A DNA stretch of 35,627 nt from a virus, in IMG/VR virus record IMGVR_UViG_3300034418_006733, positions 1-35,627 of that record; one strand, 5' to 3'. The notes below the pieces were generated by a model that searched no databases, was not told the DNA's origin, and was given only the letters and a program-made list of their open reading frames with translations. Shown one piece after another: positions 12,242 to 34,151 of the stretch. Position numbers and translations under genes: made by a program. Each line of letters opens with the position of its first letter. Within the stretch, counting starts at the first letter, position 1.

Positions 12242-13671
12242 ATCCATTCTTTTAATTCTTCTCCCATTATGGTAGAAGCTATATCTATTTTTTTACGTAA
12301 TGCTTTCACAATTTTTTCATCTACCGTTTTGGCAGCAATTAAATCTACATACGTTACTGACTTCTTCTGACCTATTCTATGTGCTCTATCTTCTGACTGT
12401 AATCTTTTTTCTAGATCGTATCCGTTAGAATAATAAATTACATTACTTGCACAAGTTAATGTAATTCCATAACCACCTGTTTGTGGATTACCAACAAAAA
12501 ATCTATAAGAAGAATTAACATCTTGAAATTTTTCTATATTTTTTTGTCGTTGATCAGAAGCAATAGCACCGTAGTATTGGACCACAGAATCATCTCCATA
12601 TTTTTTCTTAATAGCAGAAACAATATGTTCTATATCATAAATATAATTAGCCCAGATAATTGCTTTACCTTCTATTTCATCTAATACATCCATTAATTCA
12701 TTTAAACGATTTGATTTTAATTCAGTAATACCACCCTCATCTGTTTTTAAATGACCACAAGTGATTTGATGTAAACGCATCATTTGTGTAAGAACATGAG
12801 GAGCTGTAGCGAGCTTACCTTTTATCATAGCAAGGGCCGCGGATTTCATAGTAGCGTATGCTTTTTCTTGCTCTTCAGTTAGTTCTACTTCACGTTTGAT
12901 ATAAATTTTATCGGGTAGATCCAGACAATCTTCTTTTAATACACGGTAAGAAAAAGCTTTTAATATTTCAGCTAACTCATCTAATCTTTGATAATGACTA
13001 ATTATTTGTACTCTACGACCACCAAAATTTCTATCTAACATAACCGCATATCTATTTCTAAAAGAATAAAAAGAAGCATGTCCTAATAAATCTTCATTTA
13101 AAAATGCACATTGTGTATATAAATCTAATGGACTTTTGGTTACAGGAGAACCAGTTAAGATTCTTCTGTAAGTTGCATATTTTCCTAATGCAAGAATAGC
13201 TTTGGTTCTTTTTGCGGTTGGAGTTTTAATAGAAGTAGACTCATCTATTGCCATAATAGTTTTATGGGTTCGTAAAAACTTACCTGCAAACTCTAAACCT
13301 TTTTTAGTACTAAAGGCCTCAACATTCATTACAAGGATGTGAAGGTCATAGTCAGATTTGAACAATTGTTGATACTCTTTATCCTTTGCTTTAGATGTTG
13401 AAGCAGTCCAAAGTACCATTTTGTGTTGTATGTGACTAGCTAAATGTATTGGTATTTCAGAAGAATACCAGTTTCTATAAACACCTTTTGGTGCTATAAT
13501 AAGCGCCGCATTTATTTTACCATTATCATAAAGCATAGCAATATTATCTACTAATACTTTAGATTTACCGGTACCCATTTCCATAAAGTAACCGTATTCC
13601 TTTTTATCCCACGATTTTTCCAACGCAGTAATTTGATGTGCGTATGGCTTTGTCTTAAATTTATAGTTCAT
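12238..13671 (-). CDS. SNF2-type superfamily 2 helicase
   Basis: The 477-aa protein (ATG at 13671, chosen because upstream codons run through the promoter) has helicase motifs in order: I 'MEMGTGKSK' (GTGKS 33-37), II 'AIDEST' (a DEAH-box variant), III 'LTGSPVTKSP', then the C-terminal lobe with 'FVGNPQTGGYGITLTCA' and VI 'SEDRAHRIGQKKSV'. The last is typical of SNF2/RapA-like ATPases that translocate on duplex DNA. It is the only gene on this strand between two plus-strand blocks and has a divergent promoter shared with the early block. The role is probably DNA remodelling during replication or recombination. Confidence 0.85.
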   Translation of the reverse strand: MNYKFKTKPYAHQITALEKSWDKKEYGYFMEMGTGKSKVLVDNIAMLYDNGKINAALIIAPKGVYRNWYSSEIPIHLASHIQHKMVLWTASTSKAKDKEYQQLFKSDYDLHILVMNVEAFSTKKGLEFAGKFLRTHKTIMAIDESTSIKTPTAKRTKAILALGKYATYRRILTGSPVTKSPLDLYTQCAFLNEDLLGHASFYSFRNRYAVMLDRNFGGRRVQIISHYQRLDELAEILKAFSYRVLKEDCLDLPDKIYIKREVELTEEQEKAYATMKSAALAMIKGKLATAPHVLTQMMRLHQITCGHLKTDEGGITELKSNRLNELMDVLDEIEGKAIIWANYIYDIEHIVSAIKKKYGDDSVVQYYGAIASDQRQKNIEKFQDVNSSYRFFVGNPQTGGYGITLTCASNVIYYSNGYDLEKRLQSEDRAHRIGQKKSVTYVDLIAAKTVDEKIVKALRKKIDIASTIMGEELKEWI

Positions 13672-14731: not shown

Positions 14732-15505
14732 ATGAGTAATGAAGTAGTGGCTAAAAAAGACACTGGATCACTTGCCTTGTTTGGTAATGATGCAGCAAAA
14801 GGTTTTGAGAATATGACGCAGGAAGATCTTGCGTTACCTTTTCTTCGAATCTTGGGACAACTATCACCGCAGGTAACTGAAGGTGATGCAAAGTATGTAA
14901 GTAATGCGAAGCCTGGCATGATTTACAATACTGTTACCAGCGAATTATTTGATGGTAAAAAAGGTATCAAGATAATTCCTTGTTACTATAAAAAGGATTT
15001 TCCTGAATGGTCAGATAGAGGGGATGGGCCTGGAGCACCAGTTGCTATTCACCTACCTAACAGTCCGGTAATCCAAACAGGTAAGAGAGATGGATCTAAA
15101 ATTAGATTACCTAACGGTAACTATTTAGAAGAAACAGCTTCTTACTATGTTATGGCTGAAACAAAAACAGGTGGATTTACACCTGCGTTGATTACAATGA
15201 AATCAACACAACTTAACGTTAGTAAGAAATGGAATTCAATGATGAAGACCATACAAATTCCTGACGGTAAGGGTGGTTTTGCAATACCACCAATGCATGG
15301 GGTAGTTTATAATCTAGCATCAACATTACAAAAGAACGACAAAGGTTCTTGGTATGGTTGGGTTGTAAACATGGATAGAATCATGGGAGCAGACGATAAG
15401 TCTTTATACTTAATGTGTAAAGATTTTAACGGTAATGTTTCCAAGGGTAACGTGCAAACAAAAGCAGATGTGGAAGAGATCGCTAAAGACAATGCTCCTT
15501 TTTAA
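14732..15505 (+). CDS. Putative ssDNA-binding protein (SSB-like C-tail)
   Basis: This 257-aa protein has GGAG 8 bp before the ATG. It carries 'LALPFLRILGQLSPQVTEGD' near the N-terminus, a beta-rich middle, and ends '...EIAKDNAPF'. An acidic stretch closing in Pro-Phe is the hallmark of SSB proteins, where it recruits replication partners. Its place just upstream of the primase fits a gp2.5-like role. The central fold cannot be confirmed by eye, so the call is an inference from tail and context. Confidence 0.5.
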   Translation: MSNEVVAKKDTGSLALFGNDAAKGFENMTQEDLALPFLRILGQLSPQVTEGDAKYVSNAKPGMIYNTVTSELFDGKKGIKIIPCYYKKDFPEWSDRGDGPGAPVAIHLPNSPVIQTGKRDGSKIRLPNGNYLEETASYYVMAETKTGGFTPALITMKSTQLNVSKKWNSMMKTIQIPDGKGGFAIPPMHGVVYNLASTLQKNDKGSWYGWVVNMDRIMGADDKSLYLMCKDFNGNVSKGNVQTKADVEEIAKDNAPF

Positions 15506-15568: not shown

Positions 15569-17092
15569 ATGAAAGATAAGTTTAAAGAAATATTTGAGGG
15601 GTTAAAAATAGCTTATGGTCAATATCAAAAAGGTGAGCGTGGTGAAAATGGTAAACAAGGTGGTAAGGCATTTATTGTTAGAGGTAATGTTACAGATGAT
15701 CTTTGGGAAAATCATCTCAAAGGTAAAGGACCTGCTCTTGGTATTATACCGATTACCGAAAATAATACTTGTAAGTGGGGTTGTATTGATATTGACGAAT
15801 ATAATTTTAATCATGCTTTACTTATATCTAACATACGTGAATTAAAACTTCCTTTAATTGTGTGTCGCTCTAAATCTGGGGGAGCACATGTATTTTTATT
15901 TACTAAAAAATTTATACCTGCTTCTTTAATGCAAGGAACATTAAAGAAAATGGCAAAGATATTAGGATATGAAGGATGTGAAATCTTTCCTAAACAAACA
16001 GAAATATTAGTGGAACGTGGTGACACTGGTAATTTCTTAAACTTACCTTACCACAATGAAATGAAAGGGTTACGATATGCTATCAACGATAATGGTACCG
16101 GTTGTACACTTGAGGAATTTTATAAGCTCTATGATGTTTATGCTTGCGAAACAGAAGACCTCAAAGAAATTAAAATTGAAGAAAAGAAAATCGAAGAAGC
16201 GTTCAAAGATGGACCTCCTTGCTTAAATAAATTAGCTTCCACAGGGTTTGGAGAAGGATCTAGAAATAATGCATTATTTAATATTGCAGTTTATTTTAAG
16301 CAATCTAATCCAGATACCTGGGAAGATGAAATTGTAAAAGCAAACATAGAATATATGACTCCTTCATTAAGTAATAATGAAGTTCAACAATTGATTAAAT
16401 CAGTTAATAGAAAAGGTTATGATAAATATAGATGTAAAGATGCTCCTATTAATTCAGTATGTCAATCAAGTCTATGTAGATTAAAAAAATATGGAGTTGG
16501 TTTTGGGGAAGAAGAAATGCCAATACTAGGTAACCTAACAAAGTATGCATCTAAACCACCACAATGGTTTTTAGATGTAGGGGAAAATAGAATTGAATTA
16601 AAGACAGAGCAATTATATATGCCAGGATTATTTGCACTAGCATGTTTAGACCAGGCTAATTTAGTTATTCCTATTCCTAAACCAAAAGATTGGAAACAAC
16701 ATTTTTTAAAACCAATGATGAATAATTTACAAGAGATTGAACCATTAGAATCTTTAGATCCAATTAATGAGATAACTTCTTTATTACAAGATTGGACTAC
16801 GAATAGACAATCAGCAAGAACTATGGATGATATTTTAAATAAACTTCCCTACACAGATGAGAATAGAGAATTTACTTATTTCAGAAGAGAAGACTTTTAT
16901 AGTTTTTGTAAAAAGAATAATTGGGAACATGATAAAATTAAAACAGGAAATTATCTTACTCAATTAGATTGTTTTGTGGAAGAGTTTAGACCTAACATAA
17001 AAAATCAACAACCAAGAGTTATTAAAATTAAAACAATGAAGAAGATAGATGCTTCTGTTTCTAAAATAAAATATCAGCAAGATGACTTCTAG
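15569..17092 (+). CDS. Archaeo-eukaryotic type primase (TOTE-like AEP domain)
   Basis: This 507-aa protein has the AEP primase signature: the metal-binding D74-x-D76 in 'GCIDIDEYN' and 'SKSGGAHVFLF' (residues 101-111, His107), then 'EIFPKQTE'. This order is typical of the AEP domain of TOTE elements and related phage primases. It is followed by a PriCT-like helical region ('GEGSRNNALFNIAVYFKQ', near residue 230) and a Cys-containing loop 'SVCQSSLCRLKKYG'. It would prime phage DNA synthesis for the family A polymerase encoded downstream. The C-terminal ~190 residues are not recognised. Confidence 0.8.
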   Translation: MKDKFKEIFEGLKIAYGQYQKGERGENGKQGGKAFIVRGNVTDDLWENHLKGKGPALGIIPITENNTCKWGCIDIDEYNFNHALLISNIRELKLPLIVCRSKSGGAHVFLFTKKFIPASLMQGTLKKMAKILGYEGCEIFPKQTEILVERGDTGNFLNLPYHNEMKGLRYAINDNGTGCTLEEFYKLYDVYACETEDLKEIKIEEKKIEEAFKDGPPCLNKLASTGFGEGSRNNALFNIAVYFKQSNPDTWEDEIVKANIEYMTPSLSNNEVQQLIKSVNRKGYDKYRCKDAPINSVCQSSLCRLKKYGVGFGEEEMPILGNLTKYASKPPQWFLDVGENRIELKTEQLYMPGLFALACLDQANLVIPIPKPKDWKQHFLKPMMNNLQEIEPLESLDPINEITSLLQDWTTNRQSARTMDDILNKLPYTDENREFTYFRREDFYSFCKKNNWEHDKIKTGNYLTQLDCFVEEFRPNIKNQQPRVIKIKTMKKIDASVSKIKYQQDDF

Positions 17093-17297: not shown

Positions 17298-18717
17298 GCC
17301 TAAACAAATAGGTTATTTTTCTTTTACGAAGAAGGCTGCAAGAGAAGCAGCTAATCGTGCGTCTGAAAAATTTGGATTAGATGTAGAAACAGATTTAGCT
17401 AACTTTAGAACATTGCATTCATATGCATTTAGAATGTTGGGTATGAGTAGAGAAAAAATGATGAAGACAGAAGATTATAAAGAGTTTGGTCAAAAATGTG
17501 GCATACCTATTAAGACTGCAAACTTTTCAGGAGAGGACGGAACCTTTAATTCAGATAATGAATATCTTACTATTATCAATACAGCGGCTGTTAAGAGAAT
17601 GGATCTATTAGATTATTATGATTCTAGAAAAAACTTATTAGATATAGAGCGGAATACTTTATTCTTACTTTCAGAGGAACTCAAGAGATTTAAAAAAGAA
17701 AAAGAACTTAAAGATTTCAATGACTTATTGGAAGATTTTATTGCAAAAGAAATTAGTCCAAGCTTTGAAGTATTGTTTATTGATGAAGCACAAGATCTAT
17801 CTTTAATACAATGGGAAATGGTTAGATCCCTTTGGAGTAATTCTAAAAAAACTTATATCGCAGGGGATGATGACCAGGCTATTTTTAAATGGGCCGGTGC
17901 AGATGTAGATCACTTCATTGCATTAAAAGAAGAGGTGGATGATATTAAAACATTAGAACAATCTTATCGTATTCCAGGCGGACCTATTCATGAACTATCA
18001 CAAAAAATAATAAGCAAAGTACAAAATAGATTTGATAAACAATATAAGCCGAGACATGAAGTAGGAATTTTAAAAAGATATTCTGATATTACTCAAGTAG
18101 ATATGAGTCAGGGAAATTGGTTAGTATTATCTTCAGCAAATTATTTTTTAGATGATGTAAAAGAATTATGTGAGTTAAGAGGTTGGTATTATCAATACAA
18201 AGGACAAAACTCTATTAGTTTAAAATTATTATTAGCATTAAATAATTGGGAAGCATGGAGAAAAGGTTGTTATTTAAACAATTTAGAAATAAAAAATATC
18301 TATGAATACCTGGGTGCAAACGTATTAGAAGGTTTTAGAAAAGGAAAAACATTACATGCTGAAACTAAATATACATTAAAAGAATGTATAGAGCAGTATG
18401 GTTTGTTAACAGATAAGGTTTGGTATGAATCATTTGAGGGTTTAGATACTCTCACAGAAAACTACATTCGTAATATGAGGGCGAATGGAGAGATGATAAA
18501 TAAAAATCCTCGTATCATAATGTCAACTATACATGGAGCTAAAGGAGGAGAAGCGGATAAAGTTTTATTGTTACAAGATTTAACTAACGCAGCACTTGAA
18601 ACATTTGCACACGATCCAGACGAATTACATCGTTTGTTTTATACGGGTGCAACAAGAGCGAAGCGTGAATTACATATTGTGGACCCAAAAAACTTTGACC
18701 GTGCTTATTTAATATGA
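17209..18717 (+). CDS. UvrD/PcrA-like superfamily 1 helicase
   Basis: The 502-aa protein shows all SF1 motifs: Walker A 'GPPGTGKT' (7-14), Ia-like 'FSFTKKAAREAANRA', II 'FIDEAQDLS' (DEAQ 192-195), III 'IAGDDDQAIFKWAGA', IV 'LEQSYRIPGG', V 'STIHGAKGGEADKVLLL' and VI 'FYTGATRAKRELHIV'. Such enzymes unwind DNA 3'-5' or 5'-3' in an ATP-dependent way. It is shorter than host UvrD (about 700 aa), as usual for phage Dda/UvrD-like helicases. It is likely the main unwinding enzyme here, as no DnaB/gp4 helicase is found. Confidence 0.88.
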   Translation: MKTIILGPPGTGKTTTLLNLVDEFIQQGIRPKQIGYFSFTKKAAREAANRASEKFGLDVETDLANFRTLHSYAFRMLGMSREKMMKTEDYKEFGQKCGIPIKTANFSGEDGTFNSDNEYLTIINTAAVKRMDLLDYYDSRKNLLDIERNTLFLLSEELKRFKKEKELKDFNDLLEDFIAKEISPSFEVLFIDEAQDLSLIQWEMVRSLWSNSKKTYIAGDDDQAIFKWAGADVDHFIALKEEVDDIKTLEQSYRIPGGPIHELSQKIISKVQNRFDKQYKPRHEVGILKRYSDITQVDMSQGNWLVLSSANYFLDDVKELCELRGWYYQYKGQNSISLKLLLALNNWEAWRKGCYLNNLEIKNIYEYLGANVLEGFRKGKTLHAETKYTLKECIEQYGLLTDKVWYESFEGLDTLTENYIRNMRANGEMINKNPRIIMSTIHGAKGGEADKVLLLQDLTNAALETFAHDPDELHRLFYTGATRAKRELHIVDPKNFDRAYLI

Positions 18718-25673: not shown

Positions 25674-25699
25674 TTTTTTTTTTAAAAAAAATTTTTTTT
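25674..25699. other. T10-A8-T8 tract
   Basis: 26 bases contain only T and A in three homopolymer runs. Such tracts bend DNA and melt easily; here the tract lies between the dyad and the TGGCA repeats. Confidence 0.6.
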
Positions 25700-25740
25700 A
25701 GGCTGGCAGAGTGGCAAATGTCTTAAAAATCGATTATAAG

Positions 25741-25816
25741 TGTTGGTATTAAACAAAAAAAGCTTGCCAGAGCAGTCATTTTGCAGTGGCAAGGTCTGGC
25801 AAATCTGTTGGTATTA
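25741..25816. repeat. Direct repeat TGTTGGTATTA with inverted CTTGCCA/TGGCAAG between
   Basis: The exact 11-mer occurs at 25741-25751 and 25806-25816. Between them CTTGCCA (25763-25769) and TGGCAAG (25787-25793) form an inverted pair with a 17-bp spacer. More TGGCA copies lie on either side. Confidence 0.6.
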
Positions 25817-25968
25817 TTAGCTTTTTTGATTTTTCGTGTTGGCAAGAAATCAATATGTTAAAAAAGTCAATCAAATAGCCATTTCTCCGTACTCTGCGCG
25901 CGCGACCTTTTTTGTTTTTTAAAAAACTTTATAGGGGTCAAAATCCTCCTTATGTGTTAGAAACTGAA

Positions 25969-26396: not shown

Positions 26397-26527
26397 TAAA
26401 GTTTTTAGGAAAAATTAAAAGCAACGTTCACTTTTTATGGACTAAAATAAATAATCCATTTAATCAGACTCAAGGTCTTTCTTTATTTGTAATTGTGATT
26501 CTGTTGTTGATTCTTCTGTATAGATAG
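26393..26527 (+). CDS. 44-aa single-span membrane peptide overlapping terS (candidate)
   Basis: The ATG overlaps the preceding TGA (ATGATAA context). A basic N-terminal half is followed by 'LSLFVIVILLLILLYR', a clear membrane span. Its last 68 bp are antisense to the 3' end of the terminase small subunit gene. Coupling and the span argue for a real gene; the hydrophobic stretch could also be a by-product of the antisense Gln/Asp/Glu codons. Confidence 0.4.
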   Translation: MIKFLGKIKSNVHFLWTKINNPFNQTQGLSLFVIVILLLILLYR

Positions 26528-27011
26528 GTTCTTCTTCAGCAGTAATATTAATTATATTTTTGTGATCTTCTAAAATTTGTTTCATTTTAGATTGTAATTC
26601 TTCTTCACTTAATTGATCTAAATTACCTGTCATTACTAATTTTTGATCAACATATAATCCTCCGGCCTTTCCCCTTGCTATCTCTGCATTAATCGCAGCA
26701 CTCCAGGCCCCTTTTTTCTGCGCCTCATCTCTTAACTTCGCTAGTTCACCTAAATGTTTTTGAAAAGTAATTCCGTATTTTTCTTGAACCTCTGCTCGTA
26801 ACTCATTTATATATCTTACAACTAATGGTGAGTATTTAGGACTACGGAGCTCGCTCGCAGCCTGTCTTGGTCTTGTTTTGTATCCTGCTTCAAATGCGCA
26901 TTCCGCAGGCGACATTCTGCCCTCGTTGTAAACTAACAACTCTGCGAATTTGATTTGTTTTTCTGTAAGTTTTGCGGGTACTCCCATAATAATTTGACTT
27001 TTATCGTACAT
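26460..27011 (-). CDS. terS: Terminase small subunit
   Basis: This 183-aa protein (ATG 27011; a TTG at 27026 and an ATG at 26987 are alternatives) has the Terminase_2-type DNA-binding domain: 'LTEKQIKFAELLVYNEG', 'SPAECAFEAGYKTRPRQAAS' and 'LRSPKYSPLVVRYINELRAE'. A helical oligomerisation region and an acidic C-terminus follow. It would recognise the packaging site and load the large subunit. Unusually it lies about 6 kb from the large subunit and on the other strand, as the last gene of a minus-strand operon. Confidence 0.8.
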   Translation of the reverse strand: MYDKSQIIMGVPAKLTEKQIKFAELLVYNEGRMSPAECAFEAGYKTRPRQAASELRSPKYSPLVVRYINELRAEVQEKYGITFQKHLGELAKLRDEAQKKGAWSAAINAEIARGKAGGLYVDQKLVMTGNLDQLSEEELQSKMKQILEDHKNIINITAEEEPIYTEESTTESQLQIKKDLESD

Positions 27012-27050
27012 TGGCGTATAGTTCAACTACTATTTGTAGTGTTTCATTAT

Positions 27051-28184: not shown

Positions 28185-28286
28185 TTAATTACAATACAGG
28201 TTTTCTGTATCACCTTTTTTTAATGTTGCGGGTGTGTATCTCAACAATAGAGCGAATACCCACGCGATCAAAAAACTTTTAAACAT
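28185..28286 (-). CDS. 33-aa membrane peptide
   Basis: The ATG lies inside the last codons of the GP88-like gene. 'MFKSFLIAWVFALLLRYTPA' is a likely single membrane span with a basic flank, followed by a short polar tail with one Cys. Coupling and hydrophobicity support a real small membrane protein. Confidence 0.5.
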   Translation of the reverse strand: MFKSFLIAWVFALLLRYTPATLKKGDTENLYCN

Positions 28287-28989
28287 CTAAAACAAACCCC
28301 GTTTTATCGTGCCTTGCTTTACCTTTAGCATATAGACCGGCAATAATATTTTTAGGGTCTTTAAATCTAACATCAGACTCATCAGCATTAATAACTTTAT
28401 AGCCATTAAATTTTTTAGGAAGTTTTTCAGTTCTAAATACAGCTGAAATATTGCCCCCTCTTTTTAAAATATCAAAAGCCTGGGTTTTGTTGTCCTCGTT
28501 TAATGAATATGTTAAATGATAATTACTAGGGTATTCACCATTAGCCCACTTCAGAGCGCGTTTATAAATTTTGGTATAATCATAAAATTGTACTTCTGGA
28601 AACTTTTCAAAAATACCGTGACGCTCCCAGGATATATCCGACGTTCCGTTTAATCTTACAGCAGGCTGAAAGCCTTTTTTTTTACATCGGCCCACGTGCA
28701 ATTTTATTTCTTTTTCTAATTGTTGTAAAAAACTTTCACGCTCTAAAAAATACCACCTTGTCTTATTAACTCGGCCTTGCCTTACCGGACGCATAACACC
28801 CCGCCCCGCTGTAAATAAACAACTAGCCCGGCACCCTGCGGACGCCTGGGGACATGTATTAAAACCGCTAGACTCGGCAGGGGCCAAATATAAAATAGCC
28901 GTCATTACTTTTAATTTTTGGCCTTTGATTGTTTTGGCGTTATTATCAACGTTCAATAACTTTTTTGATTTATTAAATTCTATTAACAT
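28279..28989 (-). CDS. Phage GP88-like protein
   Basis: This 236-aa protein matches the gene-88 family known from mycobacteriophages and many marine phages: 'FNTCPQASAGCRASCLFTAG' (C46, C53, C57) followed by an Arg-rich 'VRQGRVNKTRWYF' stretch and 'RLNGTSDISWERHG'. The Cys cluster suggests a bound metal or Fe-S cluster. The biochemical role is not established. It is coupled to genes on both sides of the minus operon. Confidence 0.8.
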   Translation of the reverse strand: MLIEFNKSKKLLNVDNNAKTIKGQKLKVMTAILYLAPAESSGFNTCPQASAGCRASCLFTAGRGVMRPVRQGRVNKTRWYFLERESFLQQLEKEIKLHVGRCKKKGFQPAVRLNGTSDISWERHGIFEKFPEVQFYDYTKIYKRALKWANGEYPSNYHLTYSLNEDNKTQAFDILKRGGNISAVFRTEKLPKKFNGYKVINADESDVRFKDPKNIIAGLYAKGKARHDKTGFVLDV

Positions 28990-29861: not shown

Positions 29862-30239
29862 GTGAAACCCGAGTCAAAATTTTATCAACAAATCAAAAAA
29901 AATACCCCTTTAATTAAGTGGACTAGGTTGGAGTCCTGGGCCTCGTTCGGCGTTCCAGATTTATTAGGTTACCATGATTTATGCGGTTTTTTCATGGTCG
30001 AGTTAAAAATACAGACCGGCAATAAAATTAAATTTTCACCCCACCAGATACTATTTCACACCACCAGAAAAGAGCGTAATTTTATCTTGGTTAACCATAA
30101 AAACCCCGGCCCCCGTTCCTCTGTTAAACTTTACCGCTCCGCGGATATTGAAAAGCTTATCAACGACCCGCGCACCGCGTCCCCCCTGGCCGAAAATGAT
30201 TTTACAAAAATAGAAAAAATATTAATCAATCAACAATAA
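29862..30239 (+). CDS. VRR-NUC / Holliday-junction-resolvase-like nuclease
   Basis: This 125-aa protein has the small PD-(D/E)XK core: 'SFGVPDLLGYHD' (D33), 'FFMVELKIQTGNKI' (E47-x-K49) and 'FSPHQILFH'. VRR-NUC domains cut branched or flapped DNA. It starts with GTG (29862) about 3 nt after the expected transcription start, with no ribosome site. A GC-rich hairpin follows the stop. Confidence 0.75.
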   Translation: MKPESKFYQQIKKNTPLIKWTRLESWASFGVPDLLGYHDLCGFFMVELKIQTGNKIKFSPHQILFHTTRKERNFILVNHKNPGPRSSVKLYRSADIEKLINDPRTASPLAENDFTKIEKILINQQ

Positions 30240-30313: not shown

Positions 30314-30343
30314 GGCTCGTGGCCCTCGGGCCCACCCACCCGG
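30314..30343. repeat. GC-rich intergenic repeat, copy 1 (G-quadruplex motif on minus strand)
   Basis: Form: GGCTCGTG, spacer, GGGCCCACCCACCCGG. On the minus strand positions 30341-30323 read GGG-T-GGG-T-GGG-CCCGA-GGG, which satisfies the usual four-run quadruplex pattern. Three related copies follow at 30372, 32344 and 32420. Confidence 0.7.
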
Positions 30344-30371
30344 CTAAAAAAAAAATAAAGCTTGCTCGCGA

Positions 30372-30403
30372 GCTCGTGCCCTCTGGGCTCCCACCCCTCC
30401 CCC
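30372..30403. repeat. GC-rich intergenic repeat, copy 2
   Basis: Form: GCTCGTG, spacer, GGGCTCCCACCCCTCCCC. It is diverged from copy 1 at the 3' end but keeps four C-runs (G-runs on the minus strand), with one loop of eight bases. Confidence 0.65.
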
Positions 30404-30438
30404 TGCCTCGATTTTTTGAAATTTTTAAAAATAATAAA

Positions 30439-30465
30439 CCCCGCTCCGCGATTTGCGAAGCGGGG
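30439..30465 (-). terminator. Rho-independent terminator of the 30.5-32.2 kb operon
   Basis: A 7+3-bp stem (30439-30445 and 30447-30449 with 30455-30457 and 30459-30465), broken by one C-A mismatch and closing a 5-nt loop, is followed on the minus strand by TTTATTATTTTT. It lies 12 bp after the last gene of the minus block. Confidence 0.85.
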
Positions 30466-30476
30466 TATTTGCGTAT

Positions 30477-30779
30477 TTAAAACGCGCTAACAAGTAGGCG
30501 TTCGGTGTATGTTTTCCCGTCAATACTTCTTACGGGAATGACGGTCGTATATTCCTGCAAATGGTCGATATCTCTTATATCCTTATAATCCTTTTGCACC
30601 GCTTCGAAATTTTCGTACTCGGTAAAATCGCAACGGATCGCGACGGGATCAAAGGGAATGTCCTCCTCAAAGTCCTCGTAGTATTCAAACAAAGCTTTTG
30701 AGCCCTCATAGCTAAAGCCGTTTTGATCTTGTGTCATTATACCAATAAATTGGTATTCACTTATCGTATCAACTAGCAT
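30477..30779 (-). CDS. 100-aa hypothetical protein
   Basis: The start at 30779 has GAGGAG upstream, preferred over 30812. The protein is acidic with 'FEYYEDFEEDIPFDPVAIRC', 'FTEYENFEAVQKDYKDIRDI' and a beta-rich tail. Similar 'VAIRCDFTEY' proteins occur in phages and plasmids as far as I recall, without assigned function. It is the last gene before the operon terminator. Confidence 0.65.
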   Translation of the reverse strand: MLVDTISEYQFIGIMTQDQNGFSYEGSKALFEYYEDFEEDIPFDPVAIRCDFTEYENFEAVQKDYKDIRDIDHLQEYTTVIPVRSIDGKTYTERLLVSAF

Positions 30780-30833
30780 TGTTTCCTCTCCTCTTTTTGT
30801 TTCTGATCTCATCAGCTACGGCCTAACCGCAGG

Positions 30834-30851
30834 ACGCCCCGCCTGGGGCGT
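30834..30851 (-). repeat. Perfect GC hairpin inside the minus operon
   Basis: ACGCCCC (30834-30840) pairs with GGGGCGT (30845-30851) around a 4-nt loop, in the 78-bp spacer between two genes. No T-tract follows; it may be an mRNA processing or stability element. Confidence 0.55.
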
Positions 30852-30857
30852 TTCGAT

Positions 30858-31022
30858 CTAGTTAATTAACTCTGCCTCTTTGTAAGCATTATCATCAAAA
30901 CAAAGTTCGCCTTGAATATCCATGCCCCCATTGTCCAAAAGTATTTTTTTTGCTTCATCCTCATTGTTCGCAAATATTTCATAATAATAATAACAAGGTA
31001 CTTTAAATTCGTATTTCCTCAT
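30858..31022 (-). CDS. 54-aa hypothetical protein
   Basis: The ATG overlaps the upstream TGA (ATGA). It reads 'MRKYEFKVPCYYYYEIFANN', 'EDEAKKILLDNGGMDIQG' and an acidic tail, a strand then helix pattern common in small phage proteins. No ribosome site other than coupling is visible. Confidence 0.65.
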   Translation of the reverse strand: MRKYEFKVPCYYYYEIFANNEDEAKKILLDNGGMDIQGELCFDDNAYKEAELIN

Positions 31023-31210
31023 CGCTTTTTTTCCTCCTCAATTAATTTATCAATTGTATTATAAATCAAATCCTCAACGCTCCTCAAAGTCATTGAACTT
31101 TCTAAATTTATAAAATGCGTTCGGTGACTGTGTTTGTGATTTAAGATCACCGACCAACGGCCCGCGTTGCTTTGTGGGCTTTCAATTTCCCACCCCTGGT
31201 ATGCTCTCAT
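31019..31210 (-). CDS. 63-aa hypothetical protein
   Basis: ATG 31210 is chosen because it overlaps the stop of the upstream 57-aa gene (ATGA) and has AAAGGA upstream; a longer frame from 31258 would overlap that gene by 50 bp. It contains 'MRAYQGWEIESPQSNAGRWS' and 'VILNHKHSHRTHFINLESSM', then a helical tail. Function unknown. Confidence 0.65.
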   Translation of the reverse strand: MRAYQGWEIESPQSNAGRWSVILNHKHSHRTHFINLESSMTLRSVEDLIYNTIDKLIEEEKKR

Positions 31211-31380
31211 AGCTTTTGTCCTTTCGTTGTTAAATTGTATCCAAGTTTTTTTATGCATTCAATAACCCCAGGCAACAAAGTTTTGTTGCCCGAGATGTTA
31301 GCGAATAGTTTTGCTTTATCGCATACGGGATAAATTAATTGGTTCCCGTAAACGCTTTTCTTTTCTACGATCAGTTCCAT
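31207..31380 (-). CDS. 57-aa hypothetical protein
   Basis: The frame from ATG 31380 joins the stop of the upstream gene and the start of the downstream gene through overlaps, which makes it a convincing operon member. It reads 'MELIVEKKSVYGNQLIYPVC', 'DKAKLFANISGNKTLLPGVI' and a Lys-rich end. Function unknown. Confidence 0.65.
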   Translation of the reverse strand: MELIVEKKSVYGNQLIYPVCDKAKLFANISGNKTLLPGVIECIKKLGYNLTTKGQKL

Positions 31381-31610
31381 TATTTTTCTTTCCTCCTTTT
31401 TTCGTAATATGATTTTTGTATTTTTACTTCTTCTTCAGCGTAGGCAATTGCTCTGTCAATTGGTCTGTCAAAATTCAAAACCATGTCGACAATTCTTCTT
31501 AACCTTGCCCAATCCTCGTTCCACTTTCCGTAGGTCTTTCGGTCAATCGTTACGATTGCTTCAATTAATGCTCCTCGGTATGCTTCCATTCTTTGTTGGT
31601 CATTAGTCAT
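31380..31610 (-). CDS. 76-aa helical hypothetical protein
   Basis: AAAGGAG precedes the ATG. The protein is helical and charged, with 'MTNDQQRMEAYRGALIEAIV', 'TIDRKTYGKWNEDWARLRRI' and a Lys/Arg-rich C-terminus. It overlaps the next start by one base. No family is recognised. Confidence 0.65.
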   Translation of the reverse strand: MTNDQQRMEAYRGALIEAIVTIDRKTYGKWNEDWARLRRIVDMVLNFDRPIDRAIAYAEEEVKIQKSYYEKRRKEK

Positions 31611-31631
31611 TTTACTTTCTCCTTTTTGTTT

Positions 31632-31829
31632 TTAGTTTTTTAAATCTTTTAAAATTGCTAAAGAAAAAACTCTAACAAATTTTTTTAACCAATCTTGCTG
31701 TTTTAAAGACAGGTTTGGATTATTAAAAATTAAATGGATTGGCTCATAAAAAGACTTTGATACAATCTCAATTTTATTTGTATTAATCCATTTTTTATAA
31801 ATAGATTTTAACTTATCAGTATGTTTCAT
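31632..31829 (-). CDS. 65-aa basic hypothetical protein
   Basis: AAAGGAG lies 7 bp before the ATG. The sequence is Lys-rich with 'MKHTDKLKSIYKKWINTNKI' and 'LSLKQQDWLKKFVRVFSLAI'. It may bind nucleic acid or membrane; no family is recognised. Confidence 0.6.
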   Translation of the reverse strand: MKHTDKLKSIYKKWINTNKIEIVSKSFYEPIHLIFNNPNLSLKQQDWLKKFVRVFSLAILKDLKN

Positions 31830-31832
31830 TTT

Positions 31833-32228
31833 TTATTCTCCTTTGTAGTTTTTATATTTAAGAAGATGTTTCAAACAATCTTCTTTTTTTAATATTGTTT
31901 TTAAAGTTGGTTGCATCAACGGACATTTATCATCGTGTTTAAATCCAAACACCGCATGAACCAATTCATGATAAACAATATTTCTTAACGCATCTTCATT
32001 CATATCAATTGCTTTTTTTGTAATCCACAATTGACACTTTCCCCTGGATGCAAGTCCCAACAAGTTGTCCTCGCATCGCGCTTCGCCAATCCTTACTTCT
32101 ACTCTTGGCAAAGTTTTAATATGATCTTTAACTTCATAGATCATATTGATTACTTTTCTTCTTAATGAATAAACTTCATCATTCATTTTAAAGTTTTTTA
32201 TTTCTTTTGTTTGCATTTTTGTTTTCAT
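31833..32228 (-). CDS. Zinc metallopeptidase-like protein (HExxHxxxGxxH)
   Basis: This 131-aa protein carries 'YHELVHAVFGFKHDDKCPLM': H87, E88, H91, G95 and H98, then a Met105 that could form a metzincin Met-turn. The spacing is one residue longer than the canonical HExxHxxGxxH. It is the first gene of the minus operon. A small phage protease acting on a host or virion protein is possible; an SprT-like or simple zinc-binding role cannot be excluded. Confidence 0.65.
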   Translation of the reverse strand: MKTKMQTKEIKNFKMNDEVYSLRRKVINMIYEVKDHIKTLPRVEVRIGEARCEDNLLGLASRGKCQLWITKKAIDMNEDALRNIVYHELVHAVFGFKHDDKCPLMQPTLKTILKKEDCLKHLLKYKNYKGE

Positions 32229-32328
32229 TTTTCTTTCTTTTGTTTAAGCTTACAGTATCATTGTCCCTATTAGCATCAAGCATTATTATTAGAAAATCCC
32301 ATAAGTAGTTGAATACATTAGATTAAAG

Positions 32329-32337
32329 TTATCCACA
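32329..32337 (+). promoter_or_regulatory. Perfect DnaA-box 9-mer
   Basis: TTATCCACA equals the consensus bacterial DnaA box. A single copy can occur by chance in a 35-kb AT-rich sequence, but it lies in a dyad-rich intergenic region. Confidence 0.4.
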
Positions 32338-32343
32338 ATCCAC

Positions 32344-32372
32344 GGCTCGGTGACCGCGGTGCCCACCCACCC
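32344..32372. repeat. GC-rich intergenic repeat, copy 3
   Basis: Form: GGCTCGGTG, spacer, GTGCCCACCCACCC. Same orientation as copies 1 and 2, 7 bp after the DnaA-box match. Confidence 0.65.
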
Positions 32373-32377
32373 AGGTC

Positions 32378-32413
32378 GTTGCACTGTGGCAACAGTGTTG
32401 TAAATTTACAACA
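32378..32413. repeat. Alternative hairpins and 18-bp palindrome
   Basis: GTTGC/GCAAC (32378-32382, 32389-32393) and CACTGT/ACAGTG (32382-32387, 32392-32397) use the same bases and exclude each other. TGTTGTAAATTTACAACA (32396-32413) is a perfect 18-bp palindrome. The cluster lies exactly between GC-rich copies 3 and 4. Confidence 0.65.
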
Positions 32414-32419
32414 GTATGA

Positions 32420-32446
32420 GCTCGTGAACTATGGGCCCACCCACCC
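32420..32446. repeat. GC-rich intergenic repeat, copy 4
   Basis: Form: GCTCGTG, spacer, GGGCCCACCCACCC. The 14-bp second half is identical to copy 1 about 2.1 kb away. Confidence 0.7.
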
Positions 32447-32687
32447 GTAAACAAACAACGTAGGGTACCTTAACCAAAGGTCAATCTAGAAAATCGAAAC
32501 ACCCCCACCCCCTTTTTCGGGCCCGCAGACAATAGACTTACCCTTATATCTAGGTTTTAGACATATACTTGCTAAAAAAACTAAATGGCATTACAATTAT
32601 AAAATCAGAAAAATTTTATAGGGGGTACCCCTAAAAAAATAAAAACTCTGCAAAACAGAATGCCAAAAAAATTCTGCAAAAAATTTT

Positions 32688-34151
32688 ATGGATGAAGAAC
32701 TAATTAATAAGTTACCACCCGATGCGAAAAAAGAATTTATTAAATACGCATTAAAACTTTCCGAAAAAAAAATTAAATCAAAAGTCCACGATGACTTTAT
32801 GGGTTTTGTCAAACATGTTTGGCCTGAATTTATTGAAGGTAAACATCATAAAATTATTGCGGATAAATTTAATAAGATTGCTACGGGAGAAATTAAACGA
32901 CTAATTATTAACATGCCGCCGCGGCACACGAAGAGTGAATTTAGTTCCTTCTTACTTCCTGCCTGGATGATTGGCAGACGTCCTAAATTAAAAATTATTC
33001 AATCGACCCACACGACCGAACTTGCAGTTAGGTTTGGTAGAAAAGCAAAAAACTTAATGGACTCTCCAGAATATAAGCAAGTGTTTGAAACAAGATTACG
33101 AGAAGATAGTCAAGCCGCGGGCAAATGGGAAACAGAACAAGGCGGTGAATATTATGCAGCCGGTGTAGGATCGGCGATCACGGGCCGTGGAGCGGATTTA
33201 TTGATTATTGATGACCCACACTCGGAGCAAGATGCGTTGAACATGCAAGCTATGGAACGAGCTTATGAATGGTATACCTCTGGTCCTCGTCAGCGTTTAC
33301 AACCAGGCGGAGCGATTGTCTTGGTTATGACCCGGTGGAACATGAAAGATTTAACAGGGATGTTACTGAAAAGCCAAAAAGAATTAAAATCAGATCAATG
33401 GGACATTGTAGAGTTCCCTGCTATCTTACCTAGTAATAAACCTGTCTGGCCAGAATATTGGAAGCTAGAAGAATTAGAAGGAGTCAAAGCTTCTCTATCG
33501 GTAGGTAAATGGAATGCACAGTGGATGCAAAATCCAACATCGGAAGAAGGTAGTTTAATTAAAAGGGAATGGTGGAAGACTTGGGATAAAGGATATATTC
33601 CTCCTCTGCAACATGTCATTCAAAGTTATGATACAGCCTTTTTAAAAAAAGAATCTGCCGACTATTCTGCTATCACCACCTGGGGAGTTTTCTATCCAGA
33701 CCAAGACAGTGAAGCTAATTTAATTTTATTGGATGCTGTGAAGGAACGATTAGAATTTCCCGAATTAAAGAAAAAAGCAATGGAACAATATAGATACTGG
33801 AATCCCGAAACGGTGATCGTGGAAGCAAAGGCTTCTGGAATGCCACTTACTTATGAGTTGCGTAAAATGGGGATACCTGTTATAAATTTCACTCCTAGTA
33901 GAGGAAACGATAAACATGCTAGGGTTAACGCCGTATCACCCTTATTTGAAAGTGGTGTTATCTGGGCGCCGGATGAAAAATTCGCTCAAGAGGTCATTGA
34001 AGAATGTGCAGCTTTTCCTTATGGGGATCATGACGATTTAGTTGACTCCATGACACAAGCAGTGATGCGTTTTAGACAAGGTGGTTTTATTTCGCATCCA
34101 GAAGATGAACATGAAGAAAAAATGCCACCAATGGAACGAACGTATTATTAA
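32688..34151 (+). CDS. terL: Terminase large subunit
   Basis: The 487-aa protein has the packaging ATPase and nuclease: Walker A-like 'NMPPRHTKS' (residues 75-83), Walker B 'LLIIDDPHSEQ' (DD 175-176), coupling motif near 'VLVMTRWNM', then nuclease acids D315 in 'SYDTAF', E379 in 'VIVEAKASG' and DD 449-450 in 'GDHDDLVDS'. It cuts concatemers and drives DNA into the prohead. No ribosome site is seen before ATG 32688. The matching small subunit is at 26460-27011 on the other strand. Confidence 0.92.
   Translation: MDEELINKLPPDAKKEFIKYALKLSEKKIKSKVHDDFMGFVKHVWPEFIEGKHHKIIADKFNKIATGEIKRLIINMPPRHTKSEFSSFLLPAWMIGRRPKLKIIQSTHTTELAVRFGRKAKNLMDSPEYKQVFETRLREDSQAAGKWETEQGGEYYAAGVGSAITGRGADLLIIDDPHSEQDALNMQAMERAYEWYTSGPRQRLQPGGAIVLVMTRWNMKDLTGMLLKSQKELKSDQWDIVEFPAILPSNKPVWPEYWKLEELEGVKASLSVGKWNAQWMQNPTSEEGSLIKREWWKTWDKGYIPPLQHVIQSYDTAFLKKESADYSAITTWGVFYPDQDSEANLILLDAVKERLEFPELKKKAMEQYRYWNPETVIVEAKASGMPLTYELRKMGIPVINFTPSRGNDKHARVNAVSPLFESGVIWAPDEKFAQEVIEECAAFPYGDHDDLVDSMTQAVMRFRQGGFISHPEDEHEEKMPPMERTYY

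Follow-up and report, generated by a model that had tools for sequence, protein, structure and literature searches.

The interval between a predicted Hjc/VRR-like nuclease gene and the gene of the terminase large subunit (TerL) is probably an accessory-gene array in which units bounded by a 27-bp repeat, R, come and go through recombination in linkers composed of the repeat plus promoter or terminator sequence. R is confined to the nuclease-TerL interval, in one orientation and with sharp edges, and the units between its copies are independently present or absent among related phages. The analysis started from a 35.6-kb virus record (the window, meaning the whole stretch of DNA analysed), whose relatives include phage 023Pt_psg01 and the SAR11 phage HTVC027P. 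Judged by its sequence, the window is a fragment of a pelagiphage of the HTVC023P type (PMC9599517). HTVC023P-type phages infect SAR11, which is among the most abundant ocean bacteria, and many of their genes are unexplained. An R-bounded locus would provide an address for fast-changing accessory genes and a natural place to seek early host-takeover or counter-defence genes; a simple pattern suffices to pull its cassettes out of metagenomes, and the locus offers a testable case of phages with no evident integrase that trade small genes as regulated units.

Repeat copies and resident operon of the window

The four repeat copies that the earlier note had reported, all in one orientation, were recovered at their positions (Table 1) and lie far above chance. 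The PWM threshold passed by all four copies (maximum for R, 53.3) yielded a mean of 0.01 matches when the window was shuffled 100 times at the dinucleotide level, and the combined R pattern had 0 occurrences in the window shuffles; the GGGCCCACCCACCC half by itself is weaker, with 3 matches versus 0.39 expected. Intact R is 27 bp long and reads GCTCGTG-n6-GGGCCCACCCACCC. That all copies share GCTCGTG and GGGCCCACCCACCC, as also proposed, is strictly true of two of the four, R1 and R4, but not of the decayed ones: R2 retains GCTCGTG but has GGGCTCCCACCCC in its right part, and R3 carries GTGCCCACCCACCC and is decayed on its left side.

Table 1. Features of the repeat-bearing region and its surroundings in the window
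Feature	Position	Strand	Basis or remark
R1, repeat copy 1, intact	30315-30341	+	PWM 51.8; directly right of nuclease gene
R2, repeat copy 2, decayed	30372-30398	+	PWM 24.8; tandem with R1, 30-bp gap
R3, repeat copy 3, decayed	32346-32372	+	PWM 18.0
R4, repeat copy 4, intact, TerL-proximal	32420-32446	+	PWM 51.2
Intrinsic terminator of minus-strand operon, cassette left end	30438-30466	-	12-pair stem, T-rich tail
Cassette body, seven ORFs	30477-32228	-	ORF list
Cassette ORFs	30477-30812, 30858-31022, 31019-31258, 31207-31380, 31380-31610, 31632-31829, 31833-32228	-	
SprT-like ORF	31833-32228	-	SprT-like match E 0.0019, below Pfam cut-off
Left anchor, Hjc/VRR-like Holliday-junction-resolvase-type nuclease (predicted)	29862-30239	+	PHROG Holliday junction resolvase/endonuclease
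Right anchor, TerL	32688-34151	+	Terminase_6C E 1e-11
Terminase small subunit (TerS)	26460-27026	-	phrog_51 E 1e-8; outside the array
GP88 gene	28279-28989	-	Pfam GP88 E 8e-55; outside the array in the window

The seven minus-strand genes described between the repeats are present as ORFs, and the claim that they have their own terminator is confirmed by the strong stem at the left end of the cassette. Most of the seven have no or only weak relatives in Pfam and PHROG. As a whole the operon is unique, but three of the genes are found in other phages in different company (clusters 21, 17, and 23). The same probable reading of the interval as a cassette array would make this operon the resident cassette, with R1-R2 to its left as a tandem pair of the type left where a unit is missing and R3-R4 as the closing end of the array. 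The array of the window is found with identical spacing in contigs L095 and L147, which come from two other samples.

The left-anchor nuclease has 125 residues and carries the family signature GxPD...ELK with invariant G30, D33, E47, and K49. A Pfam Hjc match was obtained for 13 of its 42 relatives (best, 0.0015); the AlphaFold model, a confident one (pLDDT 89), has archaeal Hjc Holliday junction resolvases as its best PDB fold matches, followed at a lower rank by a VRR_NUC structure, and the protein is accordingly named here as a predicted Hjc/VRR-like nuclease. Its gene is unannotated in the public records MW574966 (about 15017-15396) and MN698241 (16216-16584).

Directly 5' of TerL lies an AT-rich block (AAAAAATTCTGCAAAAAATTTT, 32660-32687) that is kept in 023Pt_psg01, HTVC027P, L031, and L042 and may serve as a late promoter or in packaging. 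Left of TerS, the noncoding stretch at 25690-25830 contains several TGGCA/TGCCA direct repeats.

Confinement of the repeat to one interval

Pattern scans of IMG/VR combined with a TerL search gave 640 copies of R at 205 loci in 178 non-redundant contigs, most of the loci having been fetched through the R motif itself. A single copy among the 640 lies in the minority direction. R is upstream of TerL in all 401 copies from contigs in which TerL is present and on the TerL side of TerS in 377 of 378 copies; only 1 copy is found left of the nuclease gene, the end of which is separated from the first R by a median of 53 bp. 023Pt_psg01, whose complete genome measures 59.8 kb, has five copies, all inside the nuclease-TerL interval, and none in the other intergenic gaps. 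Some phages scored as R-negative have a one-base-longer variant with a GGGCCCACCC core. The part of the literature that was searched contained nothing on pelagiphage repeats at the terminase.

The copies are about 80% identical to one another, and their 12-bp flanks are about 27 to 32% identical, close to random; R is thus a separate element, not the centre of some more extensive stretch of homology. RNAalifold found no conserved structure on either strand among 286 distinct copies. Three explanations of the repeat sequence were tried and rejected: a host-derived origin (the R pattern has no match in 84,980 bacterial and archaeal species genomes), a motif of other phage families (a full match occurs in only one of 50,697 phage records, that of 023Pt_psg01, and the carriers are family members plus one markerless 1.85-kb contig), and concerted evolution within a genome (similarity of 0.80 between copies of the same genome and 0.79 across genomes).

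Since the direction of R is constant in convergent, divergent, and tandem gene gaps, it is neither a simple promoter nor a simple terminator; it is probably a protein-binding boundary site, a putative role. R might instead be a regulatory or insulator site, used by a phage regulator or separating transcription units; each unit would require its own copy, so that all borders retain one, and recombination would be a by-product. Its position at nearly all transcription-unit borders (93% of copies are intergenic) and close upstream of the leftward promoters of the layout found in the window would fit such a site, but an orientation indifferent to that of the neighbouring genes and the gaps of 023Pt_psg01 that have no R do not, and we consider this explanation rather unlikely.

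The position of R relative to TerL also raises the question of packaging, the role that the earlier note had offered as an alternative. A terminase recognition site (pac- or cosB-like) multiplied by the growth of the array would agree with the invariable location of R upstream of TerL in a fixed orientation and with the contig ends, which pile up 0 to 1 kb upstream of TerL in 38 of 77 cases (L007-L086). These ends form no sharp peak, however, and are diffuse, a pattern that variation among strains would likewise produce; they may reflect breaks in assembly at the variable array or diffuse genome ends, and are at most suggestive of packaging. The gain and loss of R takes 6 changes on the nuclease tree, 7 on that of TerS, and 8 on that of TerL, so that its presence follows none of the three closely. 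Contig L017, with TerS and TerL 82% and 88% identical to those of the window, lacks R throughout the 6 kb preceding TerL, and 023Pt_psg01 has the same R with a TerS that is only 36% identical. Because R does not travel with the terminase, the packaging suggestion is not supported, and a terminase site is very improbable.

Equally improbable is a replication origin with the copies as its iterons. The copies are directional, and the same TerS-TerL region bears GCTTGNN heptad arrays in HTVC027P and 33- and 58-nt iterons in HTVC023P, but R is spread over 0.5 to 5 kb at unit borders instead of being clustered, it is absent in L017, and the skew here follows the gene strand. In HTVC027P (MN698241, L153) the heptad arrays are located at 16499-16635, 17396-17446, and 17719-17746, in gaps where relatives carry R; the 3' end of the nuclease gene, which is unannotated there, runs through the first of them, and 16 of 17 heptad pairs are within the nuclease-TerL interval on the same strand. 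HTVC023P (MN698239, L151) has its tandem direct repeats between TerS and TerL at 12469-12567 and 14918-15089. Repeats in this interval may thus be common more widely in the family, with heptads like those of HTVC027P as a possible ancestor of GCTYGNN, the left half of R.

Array layouts and the probable gain and loss of cassettes

The distances between adjacent R copies are bimodal, 0 to 69 bp or at least 210 bp with none in between, and tandem pairs with the short gaps are typical of the family; the short gaps are empty, and each long one holds a single unit. Two layouts were observed. In layout A (the 023Pt_psg01 type), leftward TerS and rightward nuclease are followed by R, leftward GP88, R, leftward small genes, R, rightward genes, a tandem R-R, and rightward TerL, so that GP88 is the first cassette of the array. 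In layout B, that of the window, GP88 is outside the array, and the order is leftward TerS, leftward GP88, rightward nuclease, R-R, a variable leftward operon, R, and rightward TerL. The 65 contigs with both anchors contain 0 to 5 cassettes and measure 554 to 5243 bp from anchor to anchor. In many relatives with layout A, GP88 is separated from the cassette that follows by a stretch with a long, imperfect inverted repeat, GATCCCAGGTCC ... GGACCAGGGATC (for instance, L006 16370-16440).

Transcription signals are found at the cassette ends. A leftward terminator is present at the left end of 38 of 155 cassettes, about a quarter, versus 2 of 155 in the cassette middle; minus-strand TTGACA occurs at 64 of the 155 right ends versus 7 in the middle, and an ATCCCAT element at 55 versus 8. 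Each unit would therefore be self-contained in transcription, consisting in layout B of a terminator, leftward gene(s), and a promoter, and the directional R would separate the units and bound the array at both ends.

Gene content between the copies differs among related phages, and R lies neither at random positions nor always around the same genes; the check proposed by the earlier note, whether the repeat flanks variable cassettes, thus has a positive answer. Cassette types occurring in more than one context form 15 clusters, and units are independently present or absent in V-[17]-2, 2-[9]-10, V-[16]-25, and 16-[25]-14. The cassettes do not shuffle freely; their order is almost invariable. 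Both 2-10-8 and 2-9-10-8 arrays occur; in contigs having cassettes 2 and 10, cassette 9 is present between them in 4 and missing in 4. The combinations 16-25-14, 25-14, and 16-14 are all seen (L219, L240, L266). Cassette 17 is located before GP88 in two layout-A contigs and adjoins the nuclease in one layout-B contig.

Junctions lacking the cassette, which the earlier note also suggested looking for, exist as well. Besides the 2-10 and 2-9-10 arrays, L129 has an extra terminator-gene-promoter unit plus R exactly at the site of the tandem R-R in L109; the flanks of this occupied/empty pair are 94% and 81% identical, the second being closest next to R, and the breaks are at R. L042 represents a zero-cassette array with the nuclease, one R, and TerL, and no gene in between.

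For most pairs with and without cassette 9, the left homology runs through R and ends 3 to 28 bp past it, and the right homology starts 58 to 99 bp ahead of R, which delimits an exchange zone of R and the adjoining promoter; in L240 the zone is R plus the terminator. The crossover zone thus comprises R and about 100 bp of neighbouring promoter or terminator sequence, and since homology continues past R where linkers are shared, R is not necessarily the crossover point. Units would be gained or lost by homologous (annealing-type) recombination between the R-plus-promoter/terminator linkers of co-infecting phages, and such exchange would keep R in a single orientation and leave a tandem R-R where a unit is missing.

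None of the 51 indels scored in close pairs (at least 85% identity) runs exactly from R to R, and homology breakpoints, counted per sequence, show no excess at R (40, versus 32.9 expected at other intergenic sites; the maximum of 300 null draws is 54). A two-sided breakpoint count of 20 versus 2.2 is biased, because R is the shared anchor. The segments were cut at R by definition, so that R-bounded units are in part a product of construction. From the proposal of a modular cassette exchanged through the repeats, the cassette is retained, but exchange by way of R itself is an inference in the face of these indels and breakpoints. Short repeats may mislead assemblers, and some contigs are possibly chimeric at repeats; a pure assembly artefact is disfavoured because the array occurs in independent samples (the window, L095, and L147), in recurring cassette combinations, and in one complete genome.

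The same data bear on whether R is a true recombination site, recognized or cut by a phage protein that actively moves the cassettes, perhaps the Hjc/VRR-like nuclease in its integrase-like position. The nuclease gene directly left of the first R, the predicted Hjc-type fold, the sharp bounds of R, and the precise R-to-R example of L129 and L109 would suit this mechanism. VRR-type enzymes, however, are described as structure-selective (PMC4103454), the nuclease is also found in phages that have no R, the distribution of R departs from the nuclease tree (6 changes among 42), R has no folded attC-like structure, and the recent indels are not at R. Such a recombination site is unlikely. Slightly less likely still is an integron-like system of cassettes in lytic phages, with gain and loss driven by a dedicated enzyme (possibly the flanking nuclease) that would recognize R. 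We favour recombination in the shared linkers.

Comparison with known systems

PeSL, the mobile regulatory cassettes of T4-type phages reportedly described by Arbiol et al. in 2010, are intergenic linkers of promoter plus terminator that provide homology for the shuffling of small hyperplastic genes. The array shares with them the promoter or terminator at the linkers, in part of the cassettes, and the differing gene content between linkers among relatives. It differs in its sharply conserved, directional 27-bp R, neither promoter nor stem-loop, at every border, and in being restricted to one locus between two fixed genes. PeSL belong to T4-type phages with T4 early promoters, whereas the relatives here are HTVC023P-type podoviruses; the array thus resembles a PeSL in operation without belonging to that class.

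In integrons, n cassettes lie in a linear array with n+1 sites, the repeats all point the same way, a fixed gene occupies one end, and empty arrays occur. By analogy, the R array looks like an integron in all of these respects but differs in others: R has no attC-like single-strand fold, a defining integron feature, no tyrosine integrase was seen at the array among the window genes scanned, the end gene encodes the Hjc/VRR-like nuclease (predicted), and the cassettes bring their own promoter and terminator in a nearly fixed order.

Phage morons are likewise accessory genes with their own promoter and terminator; they are single insertions at scattered sites with no common border repeat, in contrast to the R array with its common repeat at one locus. 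The start-associated sequences of cluster K mycobacteriophages are short, asymmetric, conserved intergenic repeats of unassigned function. R has the same properties of length, asymmetry, conservation, and intergenic location but is tied to unit borders and one locus instead of gene starts.
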